From Thermoplasmatales archaeon (GTDB lineage Archaea; Thermoplasmatota; Thermoplasmata; Thermoplasmatales; Thermoplasmataceae), in assembly GCA_016806715.1 (NCBI GenBank), contig CP060531.1, forward strand, positions 791,966 to 855,965: DNA of 64,000 bases. Direction: 5' to 3'. Shown in pieces: positions 24,312-40,058 of this stretch. Each line of letters begins with the position of its first letter. Positions within the stretch are counted from its first letter, which is position 1. Under the pieces are notes generated by a model, which ran no database searches, had not been told where the DNA came from, and worked only from the letters and a program-made list of their open reading frames with translations. The translations under genes were made by a program, and so were the position numbers.

Positions 24312-24626
24312 ATGGGCTTGATTCATCCTCTCCTGCCGATATGGGCATGGTTTCTCACAATTATTGCTTTGCCACTGGTATATATTGTGTTACGTAGATG
24401 GGCACTAGAACAAGCCAGACGAAACAAGTTCACGATAATGCGAGGGGCAGGGTTAATGATATTGGGGGATTCCCTTGCTATACTGTTCGTTGTGATCACA
24501 TATTTTGCCACATCCTGGATCTTTGCCGTACCTATTGCATTTCTTATAAGTGTTGGAATCTTAGTATCGCTCTACAATTTCCTGACCATCCGTTCGAAGA
24601 CAAAGAAAGCCGGGAGGGAATCATAA
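24312..24626 (+). CDS. Small multi-span membrane protein, unknown
   Basis: 104 residues with three hydrophobic segments (about residues 8-27, 45-66 and 70-92) and a basic C-terminus (RSKTKKAGRES). It begins one base after the preceding stop, so it is almost certainly cotranscribed with it. The trio of signal-anchor, extracellular part and membrane protein looks like a local surface unit, but no family or function is recognisable. Confidence 0.55.
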   Translation: MGLIHPLLPIWAWFLTIIALPLVYIVLRRWALEQARRNKFTIMRGAGLMILGDSLAILFVVITYFATSWIFAVPIAFLISVGILVSLYNFLTIRSKTKKAGRES

Positions 24627-24799
24627 ATTCTCACCCTTTTCACTTTGGATGTACCCAACCCAATGTGAATCCCCCTGACGCTGATTAGCCGTCTTTTGGA
24701 TCCCCCATACTCACAGGTGAATCGGTACCTCCGGTTCATTGGGTCATATGCACAGTCCTCAAGTGACCTGATGTACCTGTCCCATCTTCCCTCAGACAC
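24572..24799 (-). other. Minus-strand open frame, possible remnant
   Basis: 75 residues, basic and tyrosine-rich (DRYIRSLEDCAYDPMNRRYRF in shortened form), overlapping the end of the preceding membrane gene by 55 bases. It could be a scrap of a mobile element, as its composition (Arg/Tyr/Cys) resembles zinc-binding transposase ends. No firm match. The remaining bases to 24972 show nothing else. Confidence 0.2.
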
Positions 24800-24972
24800 G
24801 GTGATTATCTTTGTATCCCACGATTACACAACAAATAGAATGGCGAGTTGCACCCACATAACAACCAGCCAACCTATTTTTACCAGAATATTAATGCCCG
24901 TCCAGAACCATGCTTCAGGAAGCTCACTTCAGCAGCCAGAAAAAATAAATAAAAACACTCAATGAGCACCAT

Positions 24973-25200
24973 GTGGATCAATCTAGAAGAAAGAGGATTC
25001 TTATAGAATTAGTACCGGGAGCCATAATATCTGCACCTATTTCTTATGTTCTTGCCCAGGGAAATAATTTCTTGCAAGCTCTGTTCATTTTCTATTTTGG
25101 AATCTGGTGGATTATTTTAGCTGTAACTTATGAGGTTTTCTTCTTTAAGAGAAAGCTAGGAAAGCAAATAGCCGCAAACAGCAATCCAAATCCCAGTTAA
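24973..25200 (+). CDS. Small membrane protein, unknown
   Basis: 75 residues from GTG 24973 (the nearby ATG at 24962 is in another frame). Basic N-terminus (DQSRRKRILIE), two hydrophobic segments (about residues 14-33 and 37-56), then a basic Lys-rich tail with FFFKRKLGKQ. It is a short hairpin-like membrane protein with no recognised family. The 226 bases to the next gene hold no other feature that I can support. Confidence 0.45.
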   Translation: MDQSRRKRILIELVPGAIISAPISYVLAQGNNFLQALFIFYFGIWWIILAVTYEVFFFKRKLGKQIAANSNPNPS

Positions 25201-25426
25201 GACAGGAAATTAATAATTTCTGAACTATCTATCCATTATTCAGCACACATCTTTGAATGCCGCTTTATGGCAGGAAAGTTGCAAGGTCAAATGGGATCAC
25301 TTCATCTCCCTCCAACATCTGAACACCAAATTTCACGGCGAACTCATGCATCTCATGCCACAATGGAACTGTGCAAAGCATTTCCATCAGTGTCAAAGAT
25401 AAAATACACTCCTGCGATTAAGGACT

Positions 25427-26263
25427 ATGCCATCCGGAACAATAAAAGTTAACAAGCCTCCACCACCGCCAATTGTCGGTCCACCTCCGAAATCGACCAA
25501 ATACAAGGGCGTCAAGCATACCATAATGGTAATGAGCGGCAAGGGAGGAGTCGGAAAGTCAACCATAGCAGTGAATCTAGCAGTTACACTGGCTAAGAAG
25601 GGACTGAAGGTCGGGGTTATAGATGCCGACATCAACGGCCCGGATGATCCAAAGATGCTCGGGGTCGACAAGGAGAAGGTCTATGCGGATGAGAGCGGAA
25701 TCTCGCCTGTAGATACAAAATATGGCGTGAAGGTCATATCAATGGCGTTCCTGCTGCCTACGGAAGAAACAGCTGTGGTCTGGAGAGGTGCCCTGAGGCA
25801 CAAGGCCATACAGCAGTTCATAGAGGATGTCGTGTGGAAGGACATGGACTATGTGATCCTTGATCTCCCTCCCGGCACCGGAGATGAAGCCCTGAGCATT
25901 TCACAGATTGTACCGGAAGTTGAAGGAGTGGTAATTGTCATAACACCACAGGACGTTGCCCTCCTTGACGCCAAAAAGGCTATCAACTTTGCCGACCAGA
26001 TGAAGATAAAGGTACTGGGCATAGTGGAGAACATGAGCGGATTCGTCTGCCCGCACTGCGGAGAGATAAGCTATATATTCAAGACAGGAGGCGGCGAGAA
26101 AGCTGCCATTGAACATAAAGTTCCGTTCCTCGGCCGCGTACCGCTTTCACCTGATGTTGTCGAGACCGCTGATGAGGGGATCCCAATAGTCACCAGAAAC
26201 GAGAAAATCATGAAGATATTCGAGGACATCGTTTCAGGGATCACGCAGCAGAATCCTGCATAA
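25427..26263 (+). CDS. Mrp/NBP35-type Fe-S cluster carrier ATPase
   Basis: 278 residues. The deviant Walker A GKGGVGKST is at about residue 39, following a Pro-rich N-terminus (PPPPP). DADINGPDDPKMLG (switch I) and DLPPGTGDEAL (Walker B/switch II) follow. Near the C-terminus, CPHCG provides the CxxC used by dimeric ApbC/NBP35 proteins to bind a [4Fe-4S] cluster. It delivers clusters to apo-proteins; this organism has several Fe-S enzymes nearby (GlcF, TcuB, Zfx, aconitase-like, LipA). The length is close to that of archaeal homologues. It stands alone, with its own leader region. Confidence 0.9.
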   Translation: MPSGTIKVNKPPPPPIVGPPPKSTKYKGVKHTIMVMSGKGGVGKSTIAVNLAVTLAKKGLKVGVIDADINGPDDPKMLGVDKEKVYADESGISPVDTKYGVKVISMAFLLPTEETAVVWRGALRHKAIQQFIEDVVWKDMDYVILDLPPGTGDEALSISQIVPEVEGVVIVITPQDVALLDAKKAINFADQMKIKVLGIVENMSGFVCPHCGEISYIFKTGGGEKAAIEHKVPFLGRVPLSPDVVETADEGIPIVTRNEKIMKIFEDIVSGITQQNPA

Positions 26264-26389
26264 TCCCCCTTCGACCTGGAGTGCATTGCCCTGCTCATCA
26301 CTACAGGATTAGGGAAAATTTCCTGGACTCCATCGGGCAAATGACAGACCCGATGATAACTAATTTTATACACCAATGCATATCAAATC

Positions 26390-26896
26390 GTGAGTACAAT
26401 CATACAGCTGTCGATACTGATTTCTGAAATTGTACTGCTGGTGCTCTGGTTTTCATCCTTTGCCATGTTCCCGCTTGTCATATATCCGTTCATGAAGACT
26501 GCAGATCCGAGAGTGCTGACCACGACTGCTCCACTAATAAGGAGAGAGGCCCTGTATATACGGTACATCGGCATAGCCACTACCGCTTCCTACTTTGTAC
26601 TGAGCATATTCCCCACGTACACGCTTGCCAACATTATGGATCATTTTCGCGGCTTCGGGTTCGACCTTATCCTGGGAGTCATGCTCTTTCTATATGCAGT
26701 CATATCCGAGGGATTTATTCTGAGGTATTCCGCAAAGCTATCGGTGGTTTCAAGCTACAGGACAAGGAATTCCGATGGAGAGACCTATGCACACGAAAGG
26801 CTGGCACAGTTTGTTATAGGAAGGGTCGCTCTCCTTGCATCTGAGCTGACCCTGGCTCTCCTTGTGATATTGGTCTTTTTTAGTGTATATCTATGA
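26390..26896 (+). CDS. Four-span membrane protein, unknown
   Basis: 168 residues from GTG 26390. A TATA-like TTTTATA about 25 bases upstream suggests a leaderless transcript. Hydrophobic segments lie at about residues 7-30, 56-77, 88-108 and 144-166, with a basic/polar loop (YRTRNSDGE) before the last. No catalytic motif. It stands between mrp and the kinase gene; the 59-base gap before the kinase has its own promoter-like A/T stretch. Function unknown. Confidence 0.55.
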   Translation: MSTIIQLSILISEIVLLVLWFSSFAMFPLVIYPFMKTADPRVLTTTAPLIRREALYIRYIGIATTASYFVLSIFPTYTLANIMDHFRGFGFDLILGVMLFLYAVISEGFILRYSAKLSVVSSYRTRNSDGETYAHERLAQFVIGRVALLASELTLALLVILVFFSVYL

Positions 26897-26955
26897 TGGA
26901 TGAAACATGCCTGATTAATTGATATACCAGTTATGGTATACGTCATAGGCACCTT

Positions 26956-28284
26956 ATGCCCTCTACTCATGGAAAGAAACAGGATAATGCTTCGGACCCT
27001 GCATTCACGGTCAACTACAAGGAAGACGTGGAGACAGACAAGCCACAGGTTGTGTCGATAAAGACCAGGGAGAATGTCAGGAAGGTGGAGGTTGCAATAC
27101 TGTATCCAAACGGACAGGCGAAGATGTACAGGAGCAGGATCAGGGACGGTGAGGGAAAGATAGAGCTTTCGGTCCCCATGCCCGGGAAATTCCTCTCTTC
27201 TGTGGCTGTATACGGTAACGGAGGAATCAGGTACATGAAGGATTTCTCCTTCACGGGCAGCAGGCCGGCAGATGGTGCAGTCGAAACAGTCTCAGCAGTG
27301 AATCCCAATCTTGACAGGATCAGGAACCGCGCGATCAAGCTACCAGAGAATTTCCACGCTGACACTGTGCGTGCATGGCCAAATTCTACAGGATATACCC
27401 AGGCCCTGCAGAATCTGGCCTTCAGCATCTCGGATTCCTACCAGGACTTGAAAGGTGGCAAGCTCATAAGGAACCCGAACGTAAAAATACCGTCCTTCAT
27501 TTTCGGGTCCGGAAATTTCGGGACAGTATTCAAGATCAGCTGTGATTCAAGGGATTACGCACTGAAGTGCTTCACGCGTGCAGCATTTGACCTGGCAGAG
27601 AGATATTACTTCATAAGCAGCTATCTCTCAGGCTTATCCCTACCCATGCTTGTGGGTTTCAACTACCTGACTTCGGCAGTGCGCACAATATCAAAGTCCG
27701 GCCAGTATTACCCGGTACTCAAGATGGACTGGATAGAGGGTACCAGCCTGAACTCGTACATTGAGTCAAACTACAGCTCCCAGCCAAAGATGAAAAAGCT
27801 GGCAGACGAATTCCTAAACACGATGATCACGCTCCATGACTATGGGATCGCTCACGGAGACCTGTCAGGCGACAATATACTCGTTGATGATTCAGGTAAA
27901 CTTACCCTGATCGACTATGATGGAATGTACGTTCCACCATTCAATAGCAGGATCGCCCCTGAAAAAGGGCATGAACATTTCCAGCACCCTGGCAGGGGAA
28001 ACCACTACTCCGAGGATCTTGACAATTTCTCTGTGCTTGTTATATACCTGTCCCTTTACGGGATATCGCGAAATCCAGAACTGTGGAAATACAACGGCAG
28101 TGATGGTGACAAACTGATCCTGTCGTCAGGAGACTTCCTTAAGCCGGACGAATCAGGCGTTATAAATGACCTGAAGGCCATTGGAGGGAGGACCAGGAAA
28201 CTTGTAAACCTCCTACTGGAAGCTCTAAACAGGGACCCACTGTGGAAAGGCACAGAGCCGTCCCGGATCAGGAGCCTAAAGTAA
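26956..28284 (+). CDS. Ser/Thr protein kinase with N-terminal beta-rich domain
   Basis: 442 residues. Residues about 28-100 look like a beta-sandwich (alternating hydrophobic/polar strands, Gly-rich turns). The kinase domain follows: glycine loop GSGNFG (184-189), ATP-binding Lys in YALKCF (204), catalytic loop HGDLSGDN (300-307, Asp 302 and Asn 307) and DYDG (320-323) in place of DFG. All residues needed for phosphotransfer seem present. The last 17 bases overlap the end of a PP2C phosphatase gene on the other strand, beyond which lies a VWA gene, forming a kinase/phosphatase/VWA set like the TerY-P triads described in bacteria. No membrane segment, so cytoplasmic. Confidence 0.8.
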   Translation: MPSTHGKKQDNASDPAFTVNYKEDVETDKPQVVSIKTRENVRKVEVAILYPNGQAKMYRSRIRDGEGKIELSVPMPGKFLSSVAVYGNGGIRYMKDFSFTGSRPADGAVETVSAVNPNLDRIRNRAIKLPENFHADTVRAWPNSTGYTQALQNLAFSISDSYQDLKGGKLIRNPNVKIPSFIFGSGNFGTVFKISCDSRDYALKCFTRAAFDLAERYYFISSYLSGLSLPMLVGFNYLTSAVRTISKSGQYYPVLKMDWIEGTSLNSYIESNYSSQPKMKKLADEFLNTMITLHDYGIAHGDLSGDNILVDDSGKLTLIDYDGMYVPPFNSRIAPEKGHEHFQHPGRGNHYSEDLDNFSVLVIYLSLYGISRNPELWKYNGSDGDKLILSSGDFLKPDESGVINDLKAIGGRTRKLVNLLLEALNRDPLWKGTEPSRIRSLK

Positions 28285-28999
28285 CTATAACCAGTGTCAC
28301 GTCGTCGTTCCTCATCTCTTTCCTTGTCCTGATAAGATCAAAATAGGCAGCTGGATCCTCCATTTCCATGAGCGTATCCCAGGAATCCTTCCTGTGCTCA
28401 AGCATCCACTTGGACAGCGCATCCGTTGCCAGCATGAAGCTGCTGCCATGAGGGAAGTTAAAAGAGAATTTCTGCAGAGTAGGTTCCTTCCACTTGAATT
28501 TCCTTTCAAAAGGGGCGCCATATCCGCTCCATATAAGAGAGGGGGTTGAATTGAACCTTGCCGGATCATTTATCGGCTCTCCCTTTATGCCTGAGCCGTT
28601 CCTGAGGATGAAGCACGAATCGCCTACGGTGGATATGTTAGCAGTATAACCGTCCTCTGCCTCCACCATCTCAACTCCCAGAAACGTGGAAAATGAACCT
28701 CTTATTGCCTTGTTCTTGACAAAAAGGCTCAGCTTGTCCCACCTGATTCTGTCATACCACGAGTTCCTGGCGCCGTTGATCAGCCGGTTCAATGATTTCC
28801 CGGTATCCCCATACAGGCTGCCATCCATGCCGGAAAACTCATCCACCAGCGATGATGCCCAGATGCCGGAGAAGATCGAGTCACTTGCCCCATCTGCAAT
28901 AGCCATCCGTGAAAAATCAGCGTTGCTGGAGAAAGCGTCCTCGCACTCCTCATCACTATTGCCCAGCTTGGGCCTGCGAGATGTCCTGACGCTGATCAT
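28268..28999 (-). CDS. PP2C-type protein phosphatase
   Basis: 243 residues with PP2C signatures in order: CEDAF (about 19-23), IADGAS (34-39; metal Asp), STVGDS in the middle, LATDALS and NDDVTLV near the C-terminus (metal Asp). This is a compact, soluble phosphatase. Its ATG (28999) overlaps the stop of the VWA gene (ATGA, 28996-28999), so the two are translationally coupled. Its stop-side coding overlaps the convergent kinase by 17 bases. It probably reverses phosphorylation by that kinase on a shared target. Confidence 0.8.
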   Translation of the reverse strand: MISVRTSRRPKLGNSDEECEDAFSSNADFSRMAIADGASDSIFSGIWASSLVDEFSGMDGSLYGDTGKSLNRLINGARNSWYDRIRWDKLSLFVKNKAIRGSFSTFLGVEMVEAEDGYTANISTVGDSCFILRNGSGIKGEPINDPARFNSTPSLIWSGYGAPFERKFKWKEPTLQKFSFNFPHGSSFMLATDALSKWMLEHRKDSWDTLMEMEDPAAYFDLIRTRKEMRNDDVTLVIVTLGS

Positions 29000-29820
29000 T
29001 TCATCAGTGAAGATACGGCTCTTGTCCCGATGTCAAGCAGTTTGATAAGATCCTCCAGCTGGGCATTGAAGACATAGCCTCTGGCTCCCTGGGAAACATT
29101 CTCGTATTCCTCTTTTGCAATGGCGATCATTTCCTCGGGAAGTTCCGAAGACATCGAGAACATCATCTTCGCATACCTGTCCTCGGGAAGCTGGTGTTCT
29201 GCATATGGGAAAGAAACGGGGTGAACCTTGCTCTCCGATAGGTGGCAGTTCCAGACAAGAACGTTTCCGTCGGAAGTTGAGAGTCCCTGGAGTGTTGCCA
29301 GGGAAGTTATGGGATCTCCGTCAGTTGATTCGCCGTCTGTTATGTTGATCACAATTGGGGGGAACGATTCCTGGTGATTCTCCACCCACGACTTCACCCA
29401 TGAGATTGCAAGCTGCATTGCCTGCACCATGGGCGTATCGCTTGCAGCAACTGGTTCAAACCATATCGGGAATTCATAGTCAACCTCCTGCTCGTCTATT
29501 ACCTGTTTCTGGGTTTCAGTCCTCAGTATTCTTCCTTCCATCTCGGTTATTGGAACAATGGTTGCCTCTGAAAGAAGGGAAGCTGCCTGGCCTCTTTTAA
29601 ACCCATAACCAATTATCCCTATGTCAAAATAGTGCCTCACTCCTTCCGACTTCGTGCACCTGTTAATAATTTCTGCAATCTGCCTGTTTATGGCATCTGC
29701 AGCCTCAATAGCCTTTGATCTCGTGCTCCCTCCAATCTTGTGGCTCATGGACCTTGACTGATCCACCATGAATATGAATAATCCCGGATTATTCCTGCTG
29801 ATTTCCGATGAGTAGGTCAT
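28996..29820 (-). CDS. VWA-domain (TerY-like) protein
   Basis: 274 residues from ATG 29820 (GTG 29829 would add three). The VWA metal site (MIDAS) reads DQSRSMS near residue 20, with a Thr in SDTPMVQA near 140 and Asp in ITDGESTDGDP near 170. This is the TerY-like soluble VWA type, without a transmembrane segment, probably a binding or scaffold partner. Upstream and coupled to the PP2C gene. Promoter likely in the A/T-rich segment 29825-29860. Target unknown. Confidence 0.8.
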   Translation of the reverse strand: MTYSSEISRNNPGLFIFMVDQSRSMSHKIGGSTRSKAIEAADAINRQIAEIINRCTKSEGVRHYFDIGIIGYGFKRGQAASLLSEATIVPITEMEGRILRTETQKQVIDEQEVDYEFPIWFEPVAASDTPMVQAMQLAISWVKSWVENHQESFPPIVINITDGESTDGDPITSLATLQGLSTSDGNVLVWNCHLSESKVHPVSFPYAEHQLPEDRYAKMMFSMSSELPEEMIAIAKEEYENVSQGARGYVFNAQLEDLIKLLDIGTRAVSSLMK

Positions 29821-29829
29821 GTTTTCCAC

Positions 29830-30135
29830 AACCGTTTATGTATTTATAATTCTATTGGTTCAAAGGCGTGCGACAATGTCAGACATTTTTACAATCAGTA
29901 CAGGAAACAGGGAAATTGCGCAGCCTACGCTGCTTATCCGGCCAAAGAGTTTAGCAAGTGTTCACGCAGAACGTCATGAAACTAATGAGCCTATCACGAA
30001 TATTTGATCTCCGGTTAAAGTAGAGCGGATGGAGCCATCTGAATTTATTAAAATATCCAAATGATGCTCTAATGCAACCGAACGTAACAAATATAACAAT
30101 CGAAAAAAAATAAAAATGACGCTTTGGTATGATTA
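29830..30135. other. Intergenic stretch between VWA gene and 23S
   Basis: About 300 bases with no supported gene. A 44-codon plus-strand frame from 29876 (MSDIFTIS...) is too short to support. The A/T-rich run near 30050-30115 on the minus strand, downstream of 23S, includes a T-rich stretch in transcript sense that could end rRNA transcription. Confidence 0.35.
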
Positions 30136-30163
30136 GCCAATCAATAATAATAGTCTCTTTAGC

Positions 30164-30173
<10 letters not shown>
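30136..30173 (-). other. 3' half of the pre-23S processing stem
   Basis: Two blocks are exact reverse complements of blocks at the other end of the gene: 30164-30173 with 33077-33086 (10 bp) and 30136-30146 with 33101-33111 (11 bp). The 17 bases between them pair only in part. This fits the archaeal scheme in which a bulge-helix-bulge stem brackets pre-23S and is cut by the tRNA-splicing endonuclease. Confidence 0.75.
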
Positions 30174-33076
<2,903 letters not shown>

Positions 33077-33086
<10 letters not shown>

Positions 33087-33111
33087 TTTGCTGTTACTAA
33101 TATTGATTGGC
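33077..33111 (-). other. 5' half of the pre-23S processing stem
   Basis: Pairs with 30136-30173: 10 bp inner helix (33077-33086) and 11 bp outer helix (33101-33111), separated by 14 bases here. Short complementary triplets in the loop (AGC with GCT, and TAGT with ACTA in transcript sense) suggest a bulge-helix-bulge, but I could not settle its exact form. Confidence 0.75.
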
Positions 33112-33518
33112 GTCATTGGTCCATATTAAAGACCTCATACCCTTCCCCTCTAAGTGTCAACTCAGAAGGTGCATTAAAGCGTGTAAGCTTGGTATGGCTT
33201 TGCATAATATAAGCGTTTTGGTAAAGGGGGTACGGGATTAAAACGAAACTCTTACAGTACCTTTTCCTAATCATCACTATGATGTTCTCCAAGCGTAAAT
33301 ATTCTTTCTCAGCTTATCCATATTTGGTGATCGATATGCTTCTTTTGCCGTATTTCTTGACTAGGGTTCCATCGTTGATATGTATTCCTTATATGAATGA
33401 TCAGCTGCAGAAAGATATGACCTGCCAAAGATCTAGATGTACTCAAGCCCTTATTCCGGATAAGAAGCTGAAGCTGATCGTCGGTATGTTCCCTATGTGC
33501 GTCATTTAGTCGGGCACT
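33112..33518. other. Leader and upstream region of 23S
   Basis: About 400 bases without a gene. The part to about 33180 is probably transcribed leader; promoter candidates lie at 33204-33214 and near 33290-33300. A plus-strand frame at 33279-33509 shows no family features and is not annotated. Confidence 0.45.
33204..33214 (-). promoter_or_regulatory. Candidate TATA box of the 23S gene
   Basis: In transcript sense CTTATATTAT preceded by AAAACG, resembling a TFB-recognition element plus TATA box. It lies about 95 bases upstream of the processing stem, leaving a short leader. This is a pattern-based inference; a second A/T-rich site near 33290-33300 is an alternative. Confidence 0.45.
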
Positions 33519-34250
33519 TCAATCTCCCGCTGAGGAAGGCTCAACCTGGGATGAAATGGCTTTATTCTTCTTTCGTCTGCCGGCGTTGAATAACTTCAGA
33601 TATGGGATCAGGGCATCCATAAGCCTGTTTTCAGCCTTCCGAAGGTGTTCCTCATACGTTGATCTCGTGATGCCAAGACTCGTGGCGATTGAGTCCGTTG
33701 TAACTTCTCTGGGAGAGGCATAATACCCGTAATCAAATGCCTTTACGACTGCTTCGGCCTGCCTGTCTGTAAGACGCTCGAAAAAGGATTCCACCCATAT
33801 CGTTGACGGCAGAGAATCTATGTGGACAATCTTCTTTCCCAGGAGTTCATTTTGTCCCATTCTGGAAAGGTCAACGAAGAGCTTCTTTGTGCTGTCTTCG
33901 CTAAAACTGATTACCCTGAAATATCCCCACCCATCAAGGTAAACCGCCGGGTGAACTATTGAGCAATTGTTTCTCTCGACTACGTTCCACACGCTATTGA
34001 GGACATCGCAGCTGCATTTCATCGTAAGAACTGTTCCATCGTTGGAACGTTTGTGGTTTTCTATAACCAGGTTTATGCTGTCTGCGTATCCTTCCAGCTC
34101 CGACATGAGGTCTTCATGGTCGAGGGGCACATGGAGCATTTCCCTCTCCCAGACACACCACATCGATATTCTGACTCCAGGATACTTGTTTGACATCTGT
34201 ATGAAAGGATAATCATACTTTATCCTGAAGCTGATCTCCCAAGCTTCCAT
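33519..34250 (-). CDS. HTH_10 (bacterio-opsin activator-like) regulator
   Basis: 243 residues. The C-terminal segment from about residue 165 (LTDRQAEAVVKAFDYGYY, then DSIATSLGITRSTYEEHLRKAE) is the HTH_10 DNA-binding domain common in archaea. The first 150 residues are a mixed alpha/beta sensor without a recognised ligand motif. Its basic tail (GRRKKNK) may aid DNA binding. It lies between the 23S promoter region and a divergent small gene. Target genes unknown; a second family member is encoded at 40059-40706. Confidence 0.8.
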   Translation of the reverse strand: MEAWEISFRIKYDYPFIQMSNKYPGVRISMWCVWEREMLHVPLDHEDLMSELEGYADSINLVIENHKRSNDGTVLTMKCSCDVLNSVWNVVERNNCSIVHPAVYLDGWGYFRVISFSEDSTKKLFVDLSRMGQNELLGKKIVHIDSLPSTIWVESFFERLTDRQAEAVVKAFDYGYYASPREVTTDSIATSLGITRSTYEEHLRKAENRLMDALIPYLKLFNAGRRKKNKAISSQVEPSSAGD

Positions 34251-34361
34251 GACGTATTCAGTTCATGCATGCTATTATACTTAATCCCGTCGTATGAAGG
34301 CTTTCGCTGCAGGTGTAATGCCAATCAAACCGTTGTAAATAATAGGTTAGAGGTGGAAGAA

Positions 34362-34616
34362 ATGTACAGAATTGAAATGAGAAATGGTATAAGCGGAGAA
34401 GAAAACATGATGGTGCTCAGGGGAGCTAGAAGAGAAACTGCACAGTATGTAAGGGATGAGTTCGGGCCATATGTGATCCTCGATTTCGCCAAGAAGAGAA
34501 CCGGCAGGAAGAATATCAGGGCGATCTTCACGAGATCACTCTTTTCCCGTAGATTGCAACATCCCAGAAAGAAGAGCAGGTTCAATCAGTCCCCTGACAG
34601 GAAGTCCGAACCGTGA
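34362..34616 (+). CDS. Small basic protein, unknown
   Basis: 84 residues from ATG 34362, chosen because GAGGTGG lies eight bases upstream; an earlier in-frame ATG at 34269 has no such site. The protein is strongly basic, especially the C-terminal third (RRLQHPRKKSRFN), and could bind nucleic acid, though no known domain is visible. The next 200 bases hold no gene. Function unknown. Confidence 0.4.
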   Translation: MYRIEMRNGISGEENMMVLRGARRETAQYVRDEFGPYVILDFAKKRTGRKNIRAIFTRSLFSRRLQHPRKKSRFNQSPDRKSEP

Positions 34617-34814
34617 TCTTTTTGCTATGGAGAGTGTCGTGAAAACGATCAACCGTATAGTGTGACATTGTCATTCCTTTGAAACGCTGGCCAATGTTGA
34701 TTTATTACGAGCCAAGTGTGCCAAGTTGCCCAAGGGTCTGAAGAGCGGGTAATGCCATGTTTTGCACCTGCTTCAAGCCGGAATAATTTAATAGCCATGT
34801 CCATAATTTACATT

Positions 34815-35369
34815 ATGAAGAAAAATTTCAGGGCTGTTGGAATTGATGATGGTCCATTTATCAAGGGGAGAGACAGGTTATCACCGCTCGTTGGCGTGCT
34901 GATGCGTGCCGATTTTCTCATTGAGAAAATTGCTATTAGGAAAATAACCGTTGATGGAACGGACTCCACCGAGAAAATAATAGAGATCGTGAATGACGAC
35001 TTCAGGAAAAATGCTGCCATCATAATGACATATGGAGTGACGTTCGGAGGATTCAACATCGCAGATCTATTCAAAGTCAGTTCGGAAACCGGTATTCCGG
35101 TGATATCCATAACAAGGAAGATGCCGGATCTCAACGCTATTATTTCAGCAATAGAGAAAACACAGGATAGTATTGATTACAAACTTCAGGTGATGAAATC
35201 CTATGGCATTCAGAAAGTACAAATGAAAAACGGGAGTTGCATTTTCATTAATCTGGCTGGAATTAACCTCGAACCTTCACTTGCATTCATAGAGAAATTA
35301 ACACGCACCGGAAATATTCCTGAACCAGTGCGTACAGCAAATATTGTGGCTTCATCACTGAAGGCCTGA
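34815..35369 (+). CDS. DUF99-family protein
   Basis: 184 residues from ATG 34815; the open frame extends further upstream but the family begins with FRAVGIDDGPF. Conserved features include GIDDGPF, the VGVLMRADFLIEK region, MTYGVTFGGFN and VISITRKMPD. DUF99 proteins are archaeal and structurally related to endonuclease V, but no activity is established. The gene precedes a convergent NifX-like gene. Confidence 0.8.
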   Translation: MKKNFRAVGIDDGPFIKGRDRLSPLVGVLMRADFLIEKIAIRKITVDGTDSTEKIIEIVNDDFRKNAAIIMTYGVTFGGFNIADLFKVSSETGIPVISITRKMPDLNAIISAIEKTQDSIDYKLQVMKSYGIQKVQMKNGSCIFINLAGINLEPSLAFIEKLTRTGNIPEPVRTANIVASSLKA

Positions 35370-35388
35370 AAAAAAATGATTGGAACTT

Positions 35389-35739
35389 TTACTCTCTGTA
35401 CATATCCATATCGAGTTCTGGAACCGCCTGTTTCTTTATTTCCGGCAACTTGTTCATGACCTCGTCCAGTTTCTCTTCTTCTACTGGTATATACTTCATC
35501 TTTCCAAGAGACATATGATACGAACCGGGGCAGAGCGATCCTTCCTTAACGATTATGGCATCAGCCTTCAGCGTAAGGATAGCTGCCATTGCCCTTTCCT
35601 TCCCGCCGTATGGTGATCCAAATCCTGGGTTCTCGTACTCCTTTATCTCCTTTGTCTCGTCGTCTATCTGAAAGATGGAACTACCATATTCCAGTGGGGT
35701 GAGCATGTTTTCCTCGTCTACCACAGCTACTATTTTCAT
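35389..35739 (-). CDS. NifX/dinitrogenase-cofactor-type protein
   Basis: 116 residues from ATG 35739. The fold-type segments MKIVAVVDEEN, FQIDDETKEIKEYENPG and ILTLKADAIIV match the NifX/NifB-C family (COG1433), which bind metal-sulfur cofactor precursors in nitrogen fixers but have other unknown roles in archaea lacking nitrogenase. No nif genes are in the window. It is 80 bases downstream of purM on the same strand. Confidence 0.75.
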   Translation of the reverse strand: MKIVAVVDEENMLTPLEYGSSIFQIDDETKEIKEYENPGFGSPYGGKERAMAAILTLKADAIIVKEGSLCPGSYHMSLGKMKYIPVEEEKLDEVMNKLPEIKKQAVPELDMDMYRE

Positions 35740-35818
35740 AGCAAAATAAGGCAATTCCTGCATTTAATATCAATGTCAGGCGCAATACTACAGAAAAATA
35801 ATGAGGGAATTGCAGGAA

Positions 35819-36835
35819 TCAATAATAGTCCGATAAATTTACGGAGTATTTTGGGATGCTTATTCCCGAACCAGCTTCCACATGACCGATTTCCTTGATT
35901 GATACCCTGCTCTTAAGCGTGTTAATGAAGTCAAGCCTGCTTTCAGGGTCTATGACCACAACAAAGCCCGTGCCCATGTTGAATGTCTCGTACATCTGCT
36001 CATACGGAAGTCCACCAAGATCCATAAGCTGGTTGAAAACATTTGGCGGCTCCACAGGATCATCTATAACGTATTGCATGTCCTTCATGCGCGACAGATT
36101 TTTGAATCCTCCGCCCGTTATGTTTGCCATACCGTGTATGTTCACTATATTCAGGATGTCAAGAATCTCCCTCACATAAATTCTGGTTGGCTCAAGCAAT
36201 ACGTCAACCGTTTTCTTGCTATCGCCAGGGAAAGTGTCATTCAGGCCAATAGCATTCTGCTCGAGAATGTGCCTCACTGTTGTAAATCCGTTCGAGTGAA
36301 GGCCACTGCTCTGAAGAGAGAATACCAGGTCTCCGGGCCGTATGTTCTCCCCATTCACAATCTGGCTTTTCTGGACTATTCCGAACACTGTCCCTGAAAT
36401 ATCGGTGCTCCTAACAAGGTCGGGTATTATTGCCGTTTCTCCTCCTACTATAGTGATGTTTGATATCTGCGCCCCAACGTTGAAACCTGTGCCAAGTTGC
36501 CTGGCCATTTCGGTGTTGGCTTCCCTGAGCGCAATATAATCCACCATAGCTATTGGTTCAGCGCCGACAGTAATTGCATCATTCACGTTCATTGCAATGC
36601 AATCAATGCCCATCGTATCCCACCTGTTAGCCTCTTCGGCTATCATGACCTTTGTTCCAACGCCATCGTTATTGATTGAGACTGCAAAATTACCCAAATC
36701 TATTAGGGAAGTAAAACCGCCGAAACTGCCGATTGTCTTGAAATCTTCTCTCTTGAACTTCAACTGCCTGACGAGTGTGTTTACGAAGTCTCCCTGTGCT
36801 TTCCTGTCGATAATTCCGTTCTTGACTATGGGCAT
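35819..36835 (-). CDS. purM: Phosphoribosylformylglycinamidine cyclo-ligase (AIR synthetase)
   Basis: 338 residues. Motifs: NDGVGTKVMIAEE near residue 57, IDCIAMNVNDAITVGAEP near 77, GGETAIIPD near 130, SSGLHSNGFTTVR near 180 and ITGGGFKNL near 240. It makes 5-aminoimidazole ribonucleotide from FGAM with ATP, the fifth step in purine synthesis. Length and motifs are standard. No other purine gene is in the window; the downstream NifX-like gene is on the same strand. The start ATG 36835 has A/T-rich sequence upstream (36840-36870). Confidence 0.95.
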   Translation of the reverse strand: MPIVKNGIIDRKAQGDFVNTLVRQLKFKREDFKTIGSFGGFTSLIDLGNFAVSINNDGVGTKVMIAEEANRWDTMGIDCIAMNVNDAITVGAEPIAMVDYIALREANTEMARQLGTGFNVGAQISNITIVGGETAIIPDLVRSTDISGTVFGIVQKSQIVNGENIRPGDLVFSLQSSGLHSNGFTTVRHILEQNAIGLNDTFPGDSKKTVDVLLEPTRIYVREILDILNIVNIHGMANITGGGFKNLSRMKDMQYVIDDPVEPPNVFNQLMDLGGLPYEQMYETFNMGTGFVVVIDPESRLDFINTLKSRVSIKEIGHVEAGSGISIPKYSVNLSDYY

Positions 36836-36970
36836 ATTTCACATATCGCATCATTAGTTAAATCTTTATCATTCGCCTGATTTCAATGCAAAAAATACTG
36901 ATTTAATGAGAAAGTGCTTCAATGACAGATAATTTAAATATATTCGTAGGAATATCGACACGGTGATAAT

Positions 36971-37402
36971 TTGGTAAAAGTTGAAACGCTGGATTACAAG
37001 CCAAAGCCCATTGAAGAAAATTTTATGGACGATACTGCAAACTACCCTGTTACTGGCAAACACCACGATCACGAAGTCCGAGGAGAAGGGAAGCAGAGAA
37101 CGGATGCTGAGGGCAAACCCATGCCTATAAGCTTGGGTATCCACGGAACAAAGGTAGCAGTGGACTGGGATGCATGTGTTGCAGACGGCGCCTGTATGGA
37201 CGTCTGTCCTGTGAGTCTTTATGAATGGGAACTCAACCCGGGGCAGATGGGAACAGGAAATGACAAGGATATCTCCAAGGACAAGAGCCTTTACGCAAAG
37301 TACAGAACCGACAAGTGTGACCCTGTCAGGGAAAGCGAGTGCATATTCTGTATGGCCTGCGAAAGCGTGTGCCCTACGAGAGCCATTAAAATCACACCAT
37401 AA
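36971..37402 (+). CDS. zfx: Zinc-containing ferredoxin
   Basis: 143 residues from TTG 36971, preceded by GGTGAT and a TATA-like TTTAAATAT at about 36930-36940. An N-terminal extension carries His residues (GKHHDHE) that with an Asp bind zinc in the Sulfolobus and Thermoplasma ferredoxins. Two cluster motifs follow: CVADGACMDVCP and CIFCMACESVCP. This is the main electron carrier for 2-oxoacid:ferredoxin oxidoreductases in these archaea. A longer antisense frame covers it and is a shadow. Confidence 0.9.
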   Translation: MVKVETLDYKPKPIEENFMDDTANYPVTGKHHDHEVRGEGKQRTDAEGKPMPISLGIHGTKVAVDWDACVADGACMDVCPVSLYEWELNPGQMGTGNDKDISKDKSLYAKYRTDKCDPVRESECIFCMACESVCPTRAIKITP

Positions 37403-37508
37403 ACCAAATTTATTTACTTTTTTGTCAGTTGAAATTACCCGCTTCCAGCAGTAGTACAATTTTTTGGGAAAGGATTAAGAGAATGCGTAATATCTATACC
37501 GCAAGTAT

Positions 37509-37581
37509 AGCCCCGTGGTGTAGTGGCCAAGCATATCGGACTTTGGATCCGACGACGGCAGTTCAAATCTGCCCGGGGCTG
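37509..37581 (+). tRNA. tRNA-Gln (anticodon TTG)
   Basis: Acceptor stem AGCCCCG (37509-37515) pairs with CGGGGCT (37574-37580), discriminator G 37581. Anticodon loop CTTTGGA gives TTG, Gln. The T-loop GTTCAAATC is standard. No intron and no encoded CCA. The SAMP-like gene starts ten bases further on. Confidence 0.95.
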
Positions 37582-37591
37582 TGGAGACAAT

Positions 37592-37786
37592 ATGATAAGG
37601 ATAATTGGCAGGAAGAGGGAGACTTTTCCAATAGATAATCAGGGCACCATAGGGATGCTGGTGAAGACTCTTCACCTGAACGCAAATTCATATATTACAC
37701 TGAAAAATGGAATACCTGTCACCTCCGACGAACCCGTATCTGCCAGTGACGATATAGTGTTCATGGAAGTATTTTCCGGCGGATAA
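37592..37786 (+). CDS. Ubiquitin-like small modifier / sulfur carrier (SAMP/MoaD/ThiS type)
   Basis: 64 residues from ATG 37592; the open frame upstream runs into the tRNA and is not coding. The end reads VFMEVFSGG, the di-Gly terminus needed for activation by an E1-like enzyme. The short beta-grasp pattern (IRIIGRKRETF..., VTSDEPVSASDDI) fits ThiS/MoaD-like and archaeal SAMP proteins, which act in tRNA thiolation, molybdopterin synthesis or protein conjugation. It begins ten bases after tRNA-Gln, so both are likely on one transcript. tRNA-Gln(UUG) is a typical thiolation target, which makes the pairing suggestive, but the position could be chance. Confidence 0.7.
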   Translation: MIRIIGRKRETFPIDNQGTIGMLVKTLHLNANSYITLKNGIPVTSDEPVSASDDIVFMEVFSGG

Positions 37787-39082
37787 TCAGATTAGTTTTT
37801 TAGAATAGAATTTATCGAGAGCGTCGTATCTGACGTTAGAAGAAAACGGGTTCACAATTACCAGCTTATCTCTCATTGTCCCAAGGTTTCTTCCCATTGA
37901 AATTTCAGGCAGGTGATTGGTAACAAACTCTTCAATGCTCTCCGGCTCTGCCCTCACATCTGCATATATTCTGTCCCCCTTCACGTATGGACCTCTTTCC
38001 GAGATTCCCCTGTATTTTCTTATAAAGTCCAGGACATTATCTGAATCGGCCGGAGGGCCGGTCCTCTGCCTTATAACAGGACTGGCAGCCCTCGTGCATT
38101 CAATCACTATCTGCACATCCCCATCTATGCTGATTTCAGAGGATACCGGGCCGAAACCGCCTGAATCCAGGATATCCATAAGTGCATTCCTGAACTTGAC
38201 AGCCTGAGGGTAAATGATATCATCCACCACGTGTGGCCTGGGCAGGCTGAATAACCTTATTGCGGTTCCACGATCCCTGTAATCAGGTTTCGGATTCGGT
38301 GGATGAGGGTCCAGGAACGCCTCTGATGGTTCTGAAACGAAGAGTTTTGATGCAACCTTCATTATTGAAAATGTCTCCAAACTGACCGCAGCAGCAGCAT
38401 TTCTGTCGCTGTCAACCGGGTCAGCTATGACAACCGGCGCATCAGGCAGGTTGTCTCTGGTTATGTTTCCAATTATCAGTTTGCCTGAGAGGCGGGCGAA
38501 CTTGCTGACAACATTCTCAAAACTTTCAAATTTCCATATAAGGAGTTCGCAGATGTATCCCGAAAACCCTGACACCCTGATCTCGGATCCGTAGATCCCG
38601 AAGTGCTTCATGAACAGCTTGAGGAGTATGACCTGGTCCCTCATTCCCTCAGTGAGATTCTTCAGGATAAATTCGGTATGAAGAGGAGTACGGTCAACGG
38701 AACTTACCTTCTTTTCCCCGGGCTCGAGGCGATAACTGGGAACGAGATCGATCTTATACCCGTCTAATTCCCCGGTTACATAAGGATGTTCGGCATATTT
38801 TTCAATGCCCTGTGCAAGCATAGCCCGGCCAATCCTGACACCGATCTTCTCCATGTCACGTTTTTCGTATTTTTTTGAGAACGTAACGAAGATGTCAATG
38901 TCCCCGGACTTCATGTTGGTTCCCTTTGCCACGGACCCAACTAGCACAGGGTCAGCGTCTATAGCTTTCTCTGAACAGTATTCCCTGATTCTGCCGGTTA
39001 TGTCTGCAACAATCGAGTTTATTCTTTCCTTTTCATTATTGTCCGGTTTGTATCTCTGGAGTATCTTCCCGTAATCTATCAT
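37787..39082 (-). CDS. cca: CCA-adding tRNA nucleotidyltransferase, archaeal class I
   Basis: 431 residues. The nucleotidyltransferase signature GSVAKGTNMKSGDIDIF near residue 48 has the two metal Asps, with the third carboxylate in KIDLVPSY near 110. Archaeal class I enzymes, which add CCA to tRNA 3' ends, have this layout and length. Consistent with need, neither tRNA in the window encodes CCA. It starts inside the end of nac (ATGA, 39079-39082), so the two are coupled. The stop abuts the end of the SAMP gene by one base. Confidence 0.9.
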   Translation of the reverse strand: MIDYGKILQRYKPDNNEKERINSIVADITGRIREYCSEKAIDADPVLVGSVAKGTNMKSGDIDIFVTFSKKYEKRDMEKIGVRIGRAMLAQGIEKYAEHPYVTGELDGYKIDLVPSYRLEPGEKKVSSVDRTPLHTEFILKNLTEGMRDQVILLKLFMKHFGIYGSEIRVSGFSGYICELLIWKFESFENVVSKFARLSGKLIIGNITRDNLPDAPVVIADPVDSDRNAAAAVSLETFSIMKVASKLFVSEPSEAFLDPHPPNPKPDYRDRGTAIRLFSLPRPHVVDDIIYPQAVKFRNALMDILDSGGFGPVSSEISIDGDVQIVIECTRAASPVIRQRTGPPADSDNVLDFIRKYRGISERGPYVKGDRIYADVRAEPESIEEFVTNHLPEISMGRNLGTMRDKLVIVNPFSSNVRYDALDKFYSKKLI

Positions 39083-39444
39083 TGGCCGGTCAGATCTATA
39101 ATGGCCTGGGCCGGCTGTCCGTTGGCCTTCTTGAGAGCCTCAATGGCTTTATCTTTGCTGACGCCAGTCTGGTCGATGACCAGTTTAAGGTCATCCTCGT
39201 TGTACTGGGGAGTTGCTGCTTCCTTTTCTGTGCTTGATTTTGGCACCTCCTTCATCGTGCCGACAATCTGGAATGTCTTTTCCCCCCTTGCCTCTATCAT
39301 CATAACCTGTGCATTGGATATCACATAATCCTTTGTCGTTCCCTTGAGTATAACAGTTTTTACATCAGGCATTTCGTCTGACTTGATGCCCATCTGTGCC
39401 ATCATTCTCTTCATTTCCCTGGAATTCATCTTGCCTGGAATCAT
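39079..39444 (-). CDS. nac: Nascent polypeptide-associated complex protein
   Basis: 121 residues. N-terminus MIPGKMNSREMKRMMAQMG, then the NAC beta-barrel domain (residues about 28-75) and a C-terminal UBA domain (about 85-121: EDDLKLVIDQTGVSKDKA, then ALKKANGQPAQAI). It matches archaeal NAC, a homodimer that binds nascent chains at the ribosome. It is first in a coupled pair with cca. Confidence 0.95.
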   Translation of the reverse strand: MIPGKMNSREMKRMMAQMGIKSDEMPDVKTVILKGTTKDYVISNAQVMMIEARGEKTFQIVGTMKEVPKSSTEKEAATPQYNEDDLKLVIDQTGVSKDKAIEALKKANGQPAQAIIDLTGQ

Positions 39445-39548
39445 GATAGAAAACTAATTGCGAATGAGGATAAATAAATTTCACACTCTATTATGACTTT
39501 AGCCGCATAAGAGGAAAATAAATAAACCTCAGGTATATAGAGGTTGAA

Positions 39549-39621
39549 GCCTTGATAGCTCAGTTGGGAGAGCACCAGACTGAAGATCTGGGGGTCGCTG
39601 GTTCAATCCCGGCTCAAGGCA
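39549..39621 (+). tRNA. tRNA-Phe (anticodon GAA)
   Basis: Acceptor stem GCCTTGA (39549-39555) pairs with TCAAGGC (39614-39620), discriminator A 39621. Anticodon loop ACTGAAGAT gives GAA, Phe. D-loop and T-loop (GGTTCAATCC) are standard. No intron, no encoded CCA. An A/T-rich stretch at 39515-39530 (ATAAATAAAC) may be its TATA box. Confidence 0.95.
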
Positions 39622-40058
39622 TGTATTATCCGGTGTGAATCTGCAACTGAGAGGAACGCTATTTGACTCTGAATTGAAAGTTTTCACACTGCTAATTTTT
39701 TCATGAACTTATTCTTTCAATCTCCGTATCCATCCACTTTTGATTCCTACAATTGACTTGAGTAATCATAGAACTATGACAGGTACGCACTAGCCTCGCC
39801 GGCTTTTTCACTCTGCGGTTCTCATCTATGTGGAAACCTGTTTCCAGTGAATGCAGGAACCTTCTGCCACCCACATTGGATGAATACCCGTGTACCGGGA
39901 GCATGCCCGATGCTTCTGGAACAGGAAGAACCGGGATGGTGCAGATCCTCGGCTTGACCTTGCATAAAATTCTATCAGTCTTAGAGAAATATTATTTCTC
40001 ATTAGCCAAATACCAAAAAGATCTTCCCGCAGCGACTGGCTTGCTTATACAGTGAATT
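39622..40058. other. Gap after tRNA-Phe
   Basis: About 440 bases with no supported gene. A minus-strand frame 39701-39904 (67 codons; SNVGGRRFLHSLETGFHI) has the look of a transposase scrap but no catalytic residues, and a plus-strand frame 39828-40055 overlaps it. The HTH_10 gene ends at 40059. Confidence 0.3.

Follow-up and report, generated by a model that had tools for sequence, protein, structure and literature searches.

A 64,000-nucleotide stretch of a Thermoplasmatales genome (the window) encodes a Ser/Thr kinase, a PP2C-type phosphatase and a TerY-like VWA protein that stay physically together under purifying selection and retain their catalytic and MIDAS residues. By sequence comparison, this archaeal triad is a related variant of the bacterial TerY-P system and not a typical member, because the C-terminal OB/zinc-ribbon region of the kinase and the co-directional operon are both missing. 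An exchangeable N-terminal kinase domain stands in for the bacterial C-terminal OB domain. We put a probability of about 0.5 on the reading that the triad is a Thermoplasmatales phospho-switch, acting at or near the membrane, with an inducible stress or antiviral role rather than a housekeeping one.

The Hanks-type kinase (STK) is encoded on the plus strand (26956-28284; 442 aa) and the phosphatase on the minus strand (28268-28999; 243 aa), and their coding ends overlap tail-to-tail by 17 bp (28268-28284). The TerY gene, also on the minus strand (28996-29829; 277 aa if read from a GTG), is coupled to the phosphatase gene through a shared ATGA (28996-28999). We thereby confirmed by direct reading the layout proposed in an earlier sequence-only reading, which had placed three open reading frames within 26956-29820, the kinase convergent with the phosphatase and overlapping it by 17 bases, and VWA and PP2C joined by ATGA. 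TerY probably starts at the ATG at 29820 (274 aa) and not at the GTG at 29829, since its relatives start with M-x-Y and the spacing to a putative TATA box fits. This element, TTATAAATA (29841-29849, minus strand), is assigned to the TerY-PP2C unit by sequence match only and precedes the ATG by about 25 bp; in many relatives, TerY is preceded by a comparable AT-rich element at roughly this spacing. Upstream of the TerY promoter, TGTCTGACATTGTC (29872-29885, minus strand) is a possible operator with alternating TGTC/GACA half-sites. The pattern TGTCnGACAnTGTC recurs upstream of the TerY promoter in three of three congeners (L058, L047 and L132) with varying spacer bases, and occurs nowhere else in the genome. 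TGTCTGACA is likewise found before TerY in the ASS_A1 locus. A perfect palindrome 15 bp before the kinase start, TATACCA-GTTA-TGGTATA (26923-26940), is also unique in the genome, and was put down to chance because the nearest relative does not keep it.

Each protein matches its corresponding PADLOC TerY-P model, in line with the resemblance to a TerY-P module suggested earlier: TerY at 1.6e-83, PP2C at 4.2e-28, and the kinase at 5.6e-59 to STK_OB, covering profile positions 3-274 of 562. The kinase also matches Pfam Pkinase (8.9e-14). Pfam alone was weak for the other two proteins (PP2C, 0.013; VWA, 0.003), and because PF13672 failed to detect PP2C genome-wide, we used purpose-built alignments and PADLOC models for the triad searches. 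The kinase core (residues about 141-442; 27376-28281, plus strand) is defined by the STK_OB match, its invariant residues and an AlphaFold2 (AF2) model with a mean pLDDT of 86. Its full set of catalytic motifs, correctly read from the sequence, comprises GSGNFG (184-189), K204, HGDLSGDN (300-307) and DYDG (320-323), and an alignment shows these to be invariant across 16 relatives. The protein stops after STK_OB profile position 274, and we found neither an OB fold nor a zinc ribbon at its C-terminus. In phmmer searches of the PDB, the kinase returned generic kinases and TerY returned nothing; a match of PP2C was taken as chance. The DxSxS site reported as intact in the VWA protein held up on alignment, which had been proposed as a test of the triad: MIDAS residues D23, S25, S27, T132 and D165 (DxSxS...T...D) are invariant in 16 aligned sequences. 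PP2C residues E20, D21, D36, G37, G126, D127, D193, N231, D232 and D233 are likewise invariant in 16. One relative (G011) carries a second triad-type PP2C about 7 kb upstream of its triad (L145 8350-9081), which is probably a pseudo-phosphatase, since its DGAS metal motif is lost.

Across the family, the three genes are kept together. We compared 28 relatives from 16 genera, including the window's own, all in one Thermoplasmatales family, and wherever the contig covers the locus, TerY and PP2C share a strand and the kinase is convergent. Only the three triad genes are widely common among these neighborhoods, while the flanks change. Profile searches and neighborhood comparison thus answered the other test proposed earlier: the homologues stay together. 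Many loci come from MAGs, and missing triad pieces reflect contig ends or a run of N; the latter explains an apparent loss of PP2C and kinase in G027. TerY occurs as one copy each in 29 of 37 genomes searched of the window's family; 24 genomes from the order's other families yielded none. When 390 genomes sampled across the phylum were searched, matches fell in 22 genomes of the window's family and in two others of the same class (G361 and G403). Three genera (g10, g18 and g19) lack TerY in their near-complete genomes (11 in all), and a search with the PP2C alignment found none in G012, G028, G020, G036 and G021 (four TerY-less genomes and one more). Of the 80 loci kept in our genome scan, those from archaea were by title confined to Thermoplasmatota (with one titled 'uncultured archaeon ASS_A1') and the others were bacterial; loci of both kinds were annotated with purpose-built profiles. 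Counting loci with all three genes recognized, kinase and PP2C lie tail-to-tail in 44 of 44 archaeal loci, from a 17 bp overlap to a 12 bp gap, in contrast to a co-directional triad in 12 of 12 bacterial loci. Against the nearest relative, dN/dS is 0.066-0.067 for the kinase and for a membrane-protein gene upstream of it; for TerY and PP2C, dS is saturated and dN is 0.021 and 0.175, respectively. Between congeners (G000 and G003), TerY is 75%, the kinase 57% and PP2C 51% identical, compared to about 60-94% for protein-coding flanks, making the triad proteins more diverged than most flanking genes.

As the sequence-only reading proposed, the kinase has an extra N-terminal beta-rich domain. Residues 28-100 had been suggested for structure prediction, and AF2 predicts an eight-stranded beta-sandwich at residues about 17-102 (27004-27261, plus strand), with block pLDDT mostly 85-89. 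The domain has no Pfam match, and its profile matches filamin Ig repeats weakly (E=0.006); Foldseek with full models was dominated by the kinase domains and uninformative on N-terminal domains. Archaeal kinases bear one of three such N-terminal modules: the Ig-like beta-sandwich of the window, a PH-like domain, or hydrophobic transmembrane (TM) segments, which hydropathy places in the kinase itself (multi-TM). The PH-like domain has seven strands and a helix in AF2, its profile matches Vps36 weakly (0.41), and the g14 kinase appears by eye to contain two copies. The models were built on 13-22 sequences, and we use the names Ig-like and PH-like tentatively.

These three front ends are not inherited along with the organisms. 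With G403 left aside, the archaeal members of the TerY tree form one clade (support 97/98), and each front-end type is a single clade; the PP2C and kinase-core trees give the same grouping with the fewest possible changes, with weaker support at some nodes. We used two marker genes as species trees. Rpb2, for which a few rows are partial, rejects each type as an organismal clade (AU 1.4e-5 for Ig, 8.9e-4 for PH and 1e-72 for TM), and EF-2 rejects the two types tested (Ig, 0.013; PH, 0.0018). Both markers place g15 (Ig), g11 (PH) and g16 (TM) in one clade. Because type clades in the TerY tree are rejected as organismal by Rpb2 and EF-2, exchange is the simplest reading of these trees, and the cassette seems to have moved between lineages as a unit. 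One exchanged cassette shared with Sysuiplasma (G361, L089), which belongs to another order, is most simply read in the same way. Differential loss of three ancestral paralogues is disfavored as an alternative to transfer, since no searched genome of the family has two TerY copies.

In the window's lineage the unit also takes in a gene for a 168-aa membrane protein (26390-26896, plus strand), which lies beyond the boundaries of the sequence-only reading and was missed there. Homologues and hydropathy mark it as a lineage-specific fourth component. The gene is co-directional with the kinase and ends 59 bp upstream of it, and the protein, called 4-TM, has three hydrophobic segments over a simple hydropathy cut. 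Homologues lie directly upstream of the kinase in all seven genomes of the Ig subclade nearest the window (three from g1, one each from g4 and g9, and two from g15). A profile built from these seven recovers them, as expected; elsewhere in 61 relatives it gave weak matches at most, the best (7.9e-6, in G009) on a contig other than that of the triad, and the gene does not adjoin the kinase in PH-type and remaining Ig-type loci. The protein is unmatched in Pfam and diverges fastest here, at 26% identity for the congeneric pair G000 and G003.

The window neighbors are ordinary genes: an NBP35-type ATPase, 23S rRNA, an HTH-10 regulator, endonuclease dU and the CCA-adding enzyme. A PADLOC scan of ten neighbors found no defense gene, only short P-loop and nucleotidyltransferase cross-matches, and those ten genes do not place the triad in a defense island or a restriction/DNA-processing location. 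Context at other loci was compared by shared genes only. The earlier observation that TerC and TerD are missing is borne out among the Pfam-annotated window neighbors. We found no TerY in phage and viral collections in a scan by short peptide patterns, which can miss distant TerY. A complete 23S rRNA gene (30165-33085, minus strand) adjoins the triad, and no 16S or 5S gene was found within 24500-40000.

How might such a switch work? We propose that the N-terminal domain and the membrane partner would position the kinase and make it responsive to a signal linked to the envelope or to infection, and that the kinase would phosphorylate Ser/Thr on a target that TerY presents or binds by way of its metal site. 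PP2C, produced alongside TerY, may hold the switch off until the signal shifts the balance, and separate promoters for the writer (membrane protein and kinase) and for the adaptor and eraser (TerY and PP2C) could set their ratio.

The strongest competitor to a stress or antiviral switch, and to our minds a somewhat less probable one, is a domesticated housekeeping switch: the main Ser/Thr kinase/phosphatase pair of these cells, serving envelope or general stress physiology without a role in virus defense. The near-fixation of the triad and its plain neighbors, among them the NBP35-type ATPase, 23S rRNA and CCA-adding enzyme genes, favor this reading in part, as do its single copy and purifying selection. 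It also gains from kinase content, in that 5 of the 12 triad genomes searched have no Pkinase match above the Pfam cut-off other than the triad kinase, and in a sixth (G008) this kinase is the best match, though below the cut-off. Defense systems are typically patchy in distribution, and the antiviral reading must contend with a triad that is essentially fixed, outside three genera, in near-complete genomes of the family. The lack of a defense gene among the scanned neighbors and of TerY in the phage and viral collections likewise speaks against it. A housekeeping role fits poorly with an inheritance that departs from that of the organisms, with triad genes that diverge more than most of their neighbors, and with three whole genera that live without them. 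Cassette exchange and fast divergence lead us to rank the stress or antiviral switch above the housekeeping one.

Two other explanations fare worse. A recent transplant of a bacterial stand-alone TerY-P antiphage system, acting as in Escherichia and Pseudomonas, would explain why all three TerY-P models matched and why TerY is about 44% identical to that of Burkholderia and Pseudomonas, but it is improbable: the archaeal kinase lacks the OB domain, its gene is inverted and it carries a different N-terminal module, and the separate, well-supported archaeal TerY clade argues that the split from bacterial TerY is not recent. A chance cluster of three unrelated genes, to which the opposite strand of the kinase might point, is refuted by a tail-to-tail layout that stays the same across the 44 archaeal loci while the flanks change. 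We also entertain a bolder and rather doubtful reading: a near-universal archaeal phospho-relay cassette for immunity, kept at one copy per genome and replaced whole between lineages, whose exchangeable front end, be it the Ig-like domain with its membrane partner, the PH-like domain or a built-in TM domain, would define what membrane-side cue is sensed, and whose writer and eraser, in opposed overlapping units, might give bistable control.

Archaeal Ser/Thr phosphorylation switches are little understood. Because the triad kinase is the sole conventional Hanks-type kinase above the Pfam cut-off in several genomes, its substrates could be read there directly by phosphoproteomics. FHA phospho-readers are absent from 7 of the 12 triad genomes searched, so we found no universal reader partner. 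Being almost always present, in single copy and not inherited with the organism is unusual for housekeeping and typical defense modules alike, and this pattern makes the purpose of the switch testable.

TerY-P was reportedly described by Gao in 2020 as a stand-alone antiphage system. The literature treats TerY-P with an OB kinase as an antiphage system (PMC11090510, PMC7699616); bacterial TerY-P gives protection from T7-like phages and leaves most cells alive (PMC10889362; PMC7699616), and that of Pseudomonas acts on Autographiviridae, again with survival of most cells (PMC10889362). The suggestion that the triad is an undescribed system therefore stands only in part: TerY-P is already named and has been tested against phages in bacteria (PMC11090510, PMC10889362), and what the window adds is a related variant. 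TerY goes unmentioned in a survey of immunity in archaea (PMC12988326), and we found no description of TerY-P-like modules in Thermoplasmatales in the literature searched, a search whose reach did not extend to most subscription papers. Like stand-alone TerY-P, the archaeal triad has the same three proteins, PP2C directly after TerY, and a kinase core homologous to the first half of STK_OB; Pseudomonas-type kinases span this profile end to end, whereas archaeal kinases span its kinase half only. Unlike stand-alone TerY-P, it has an inverted kinase gene, no C-terminal OB domain, an N-terminal Ig-like, PH-like or TM module, and near-fixation in its family without defense context. Both layouts exist in the class, since G403, an archaeon of the same class, encodes a co-directional, bacterial-style TerY-PP2C-kinase triad (L144 7093-10445); at its second locus (L143 10774-12105), another TerY match lies next to a kinase-like ORF. 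Among the bacterial loci, the kinase of a Thermotogae TerY-PP2C-kinase operon (L121 9740-12910) carries a fused FGE-sulfatase domain at its C-terminus (Pfam 1.8e-52), and Chthonomonas (L114 11885-15149) encodes a tandem pair of TerY-P-type kinases after PP2C.

Triads in CoCoNuT and Ter contexts also combine VWA, PP2C and a Ser/Thr kinase, and the passage on them in PMC11090510, citing Anantharaman 2012, gives this kinase a C-terminal zinc ribbon; the archaeal kinase lacks the ribbon, and no gene for TerC/TerD, McrBC or a helicase is among its annotated neighbors. Magnetospirillum-type triads, whose kinase is only about 321 aa long, share the missing OB half, but differ in their co-directional order and in a kinase without an N-terminal module. 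In actinobacterial GTPase-linked kinase-PP2C-VWA sets, some kinases have a zinc ribbon and a beta-rich domain or TM helices (PMC7159879). We saw no GTPase genes at the archaeal triad; compared by description, both encode beside PP2C and VWA a kinase that carries a fused beta-rich domain or TM helices.
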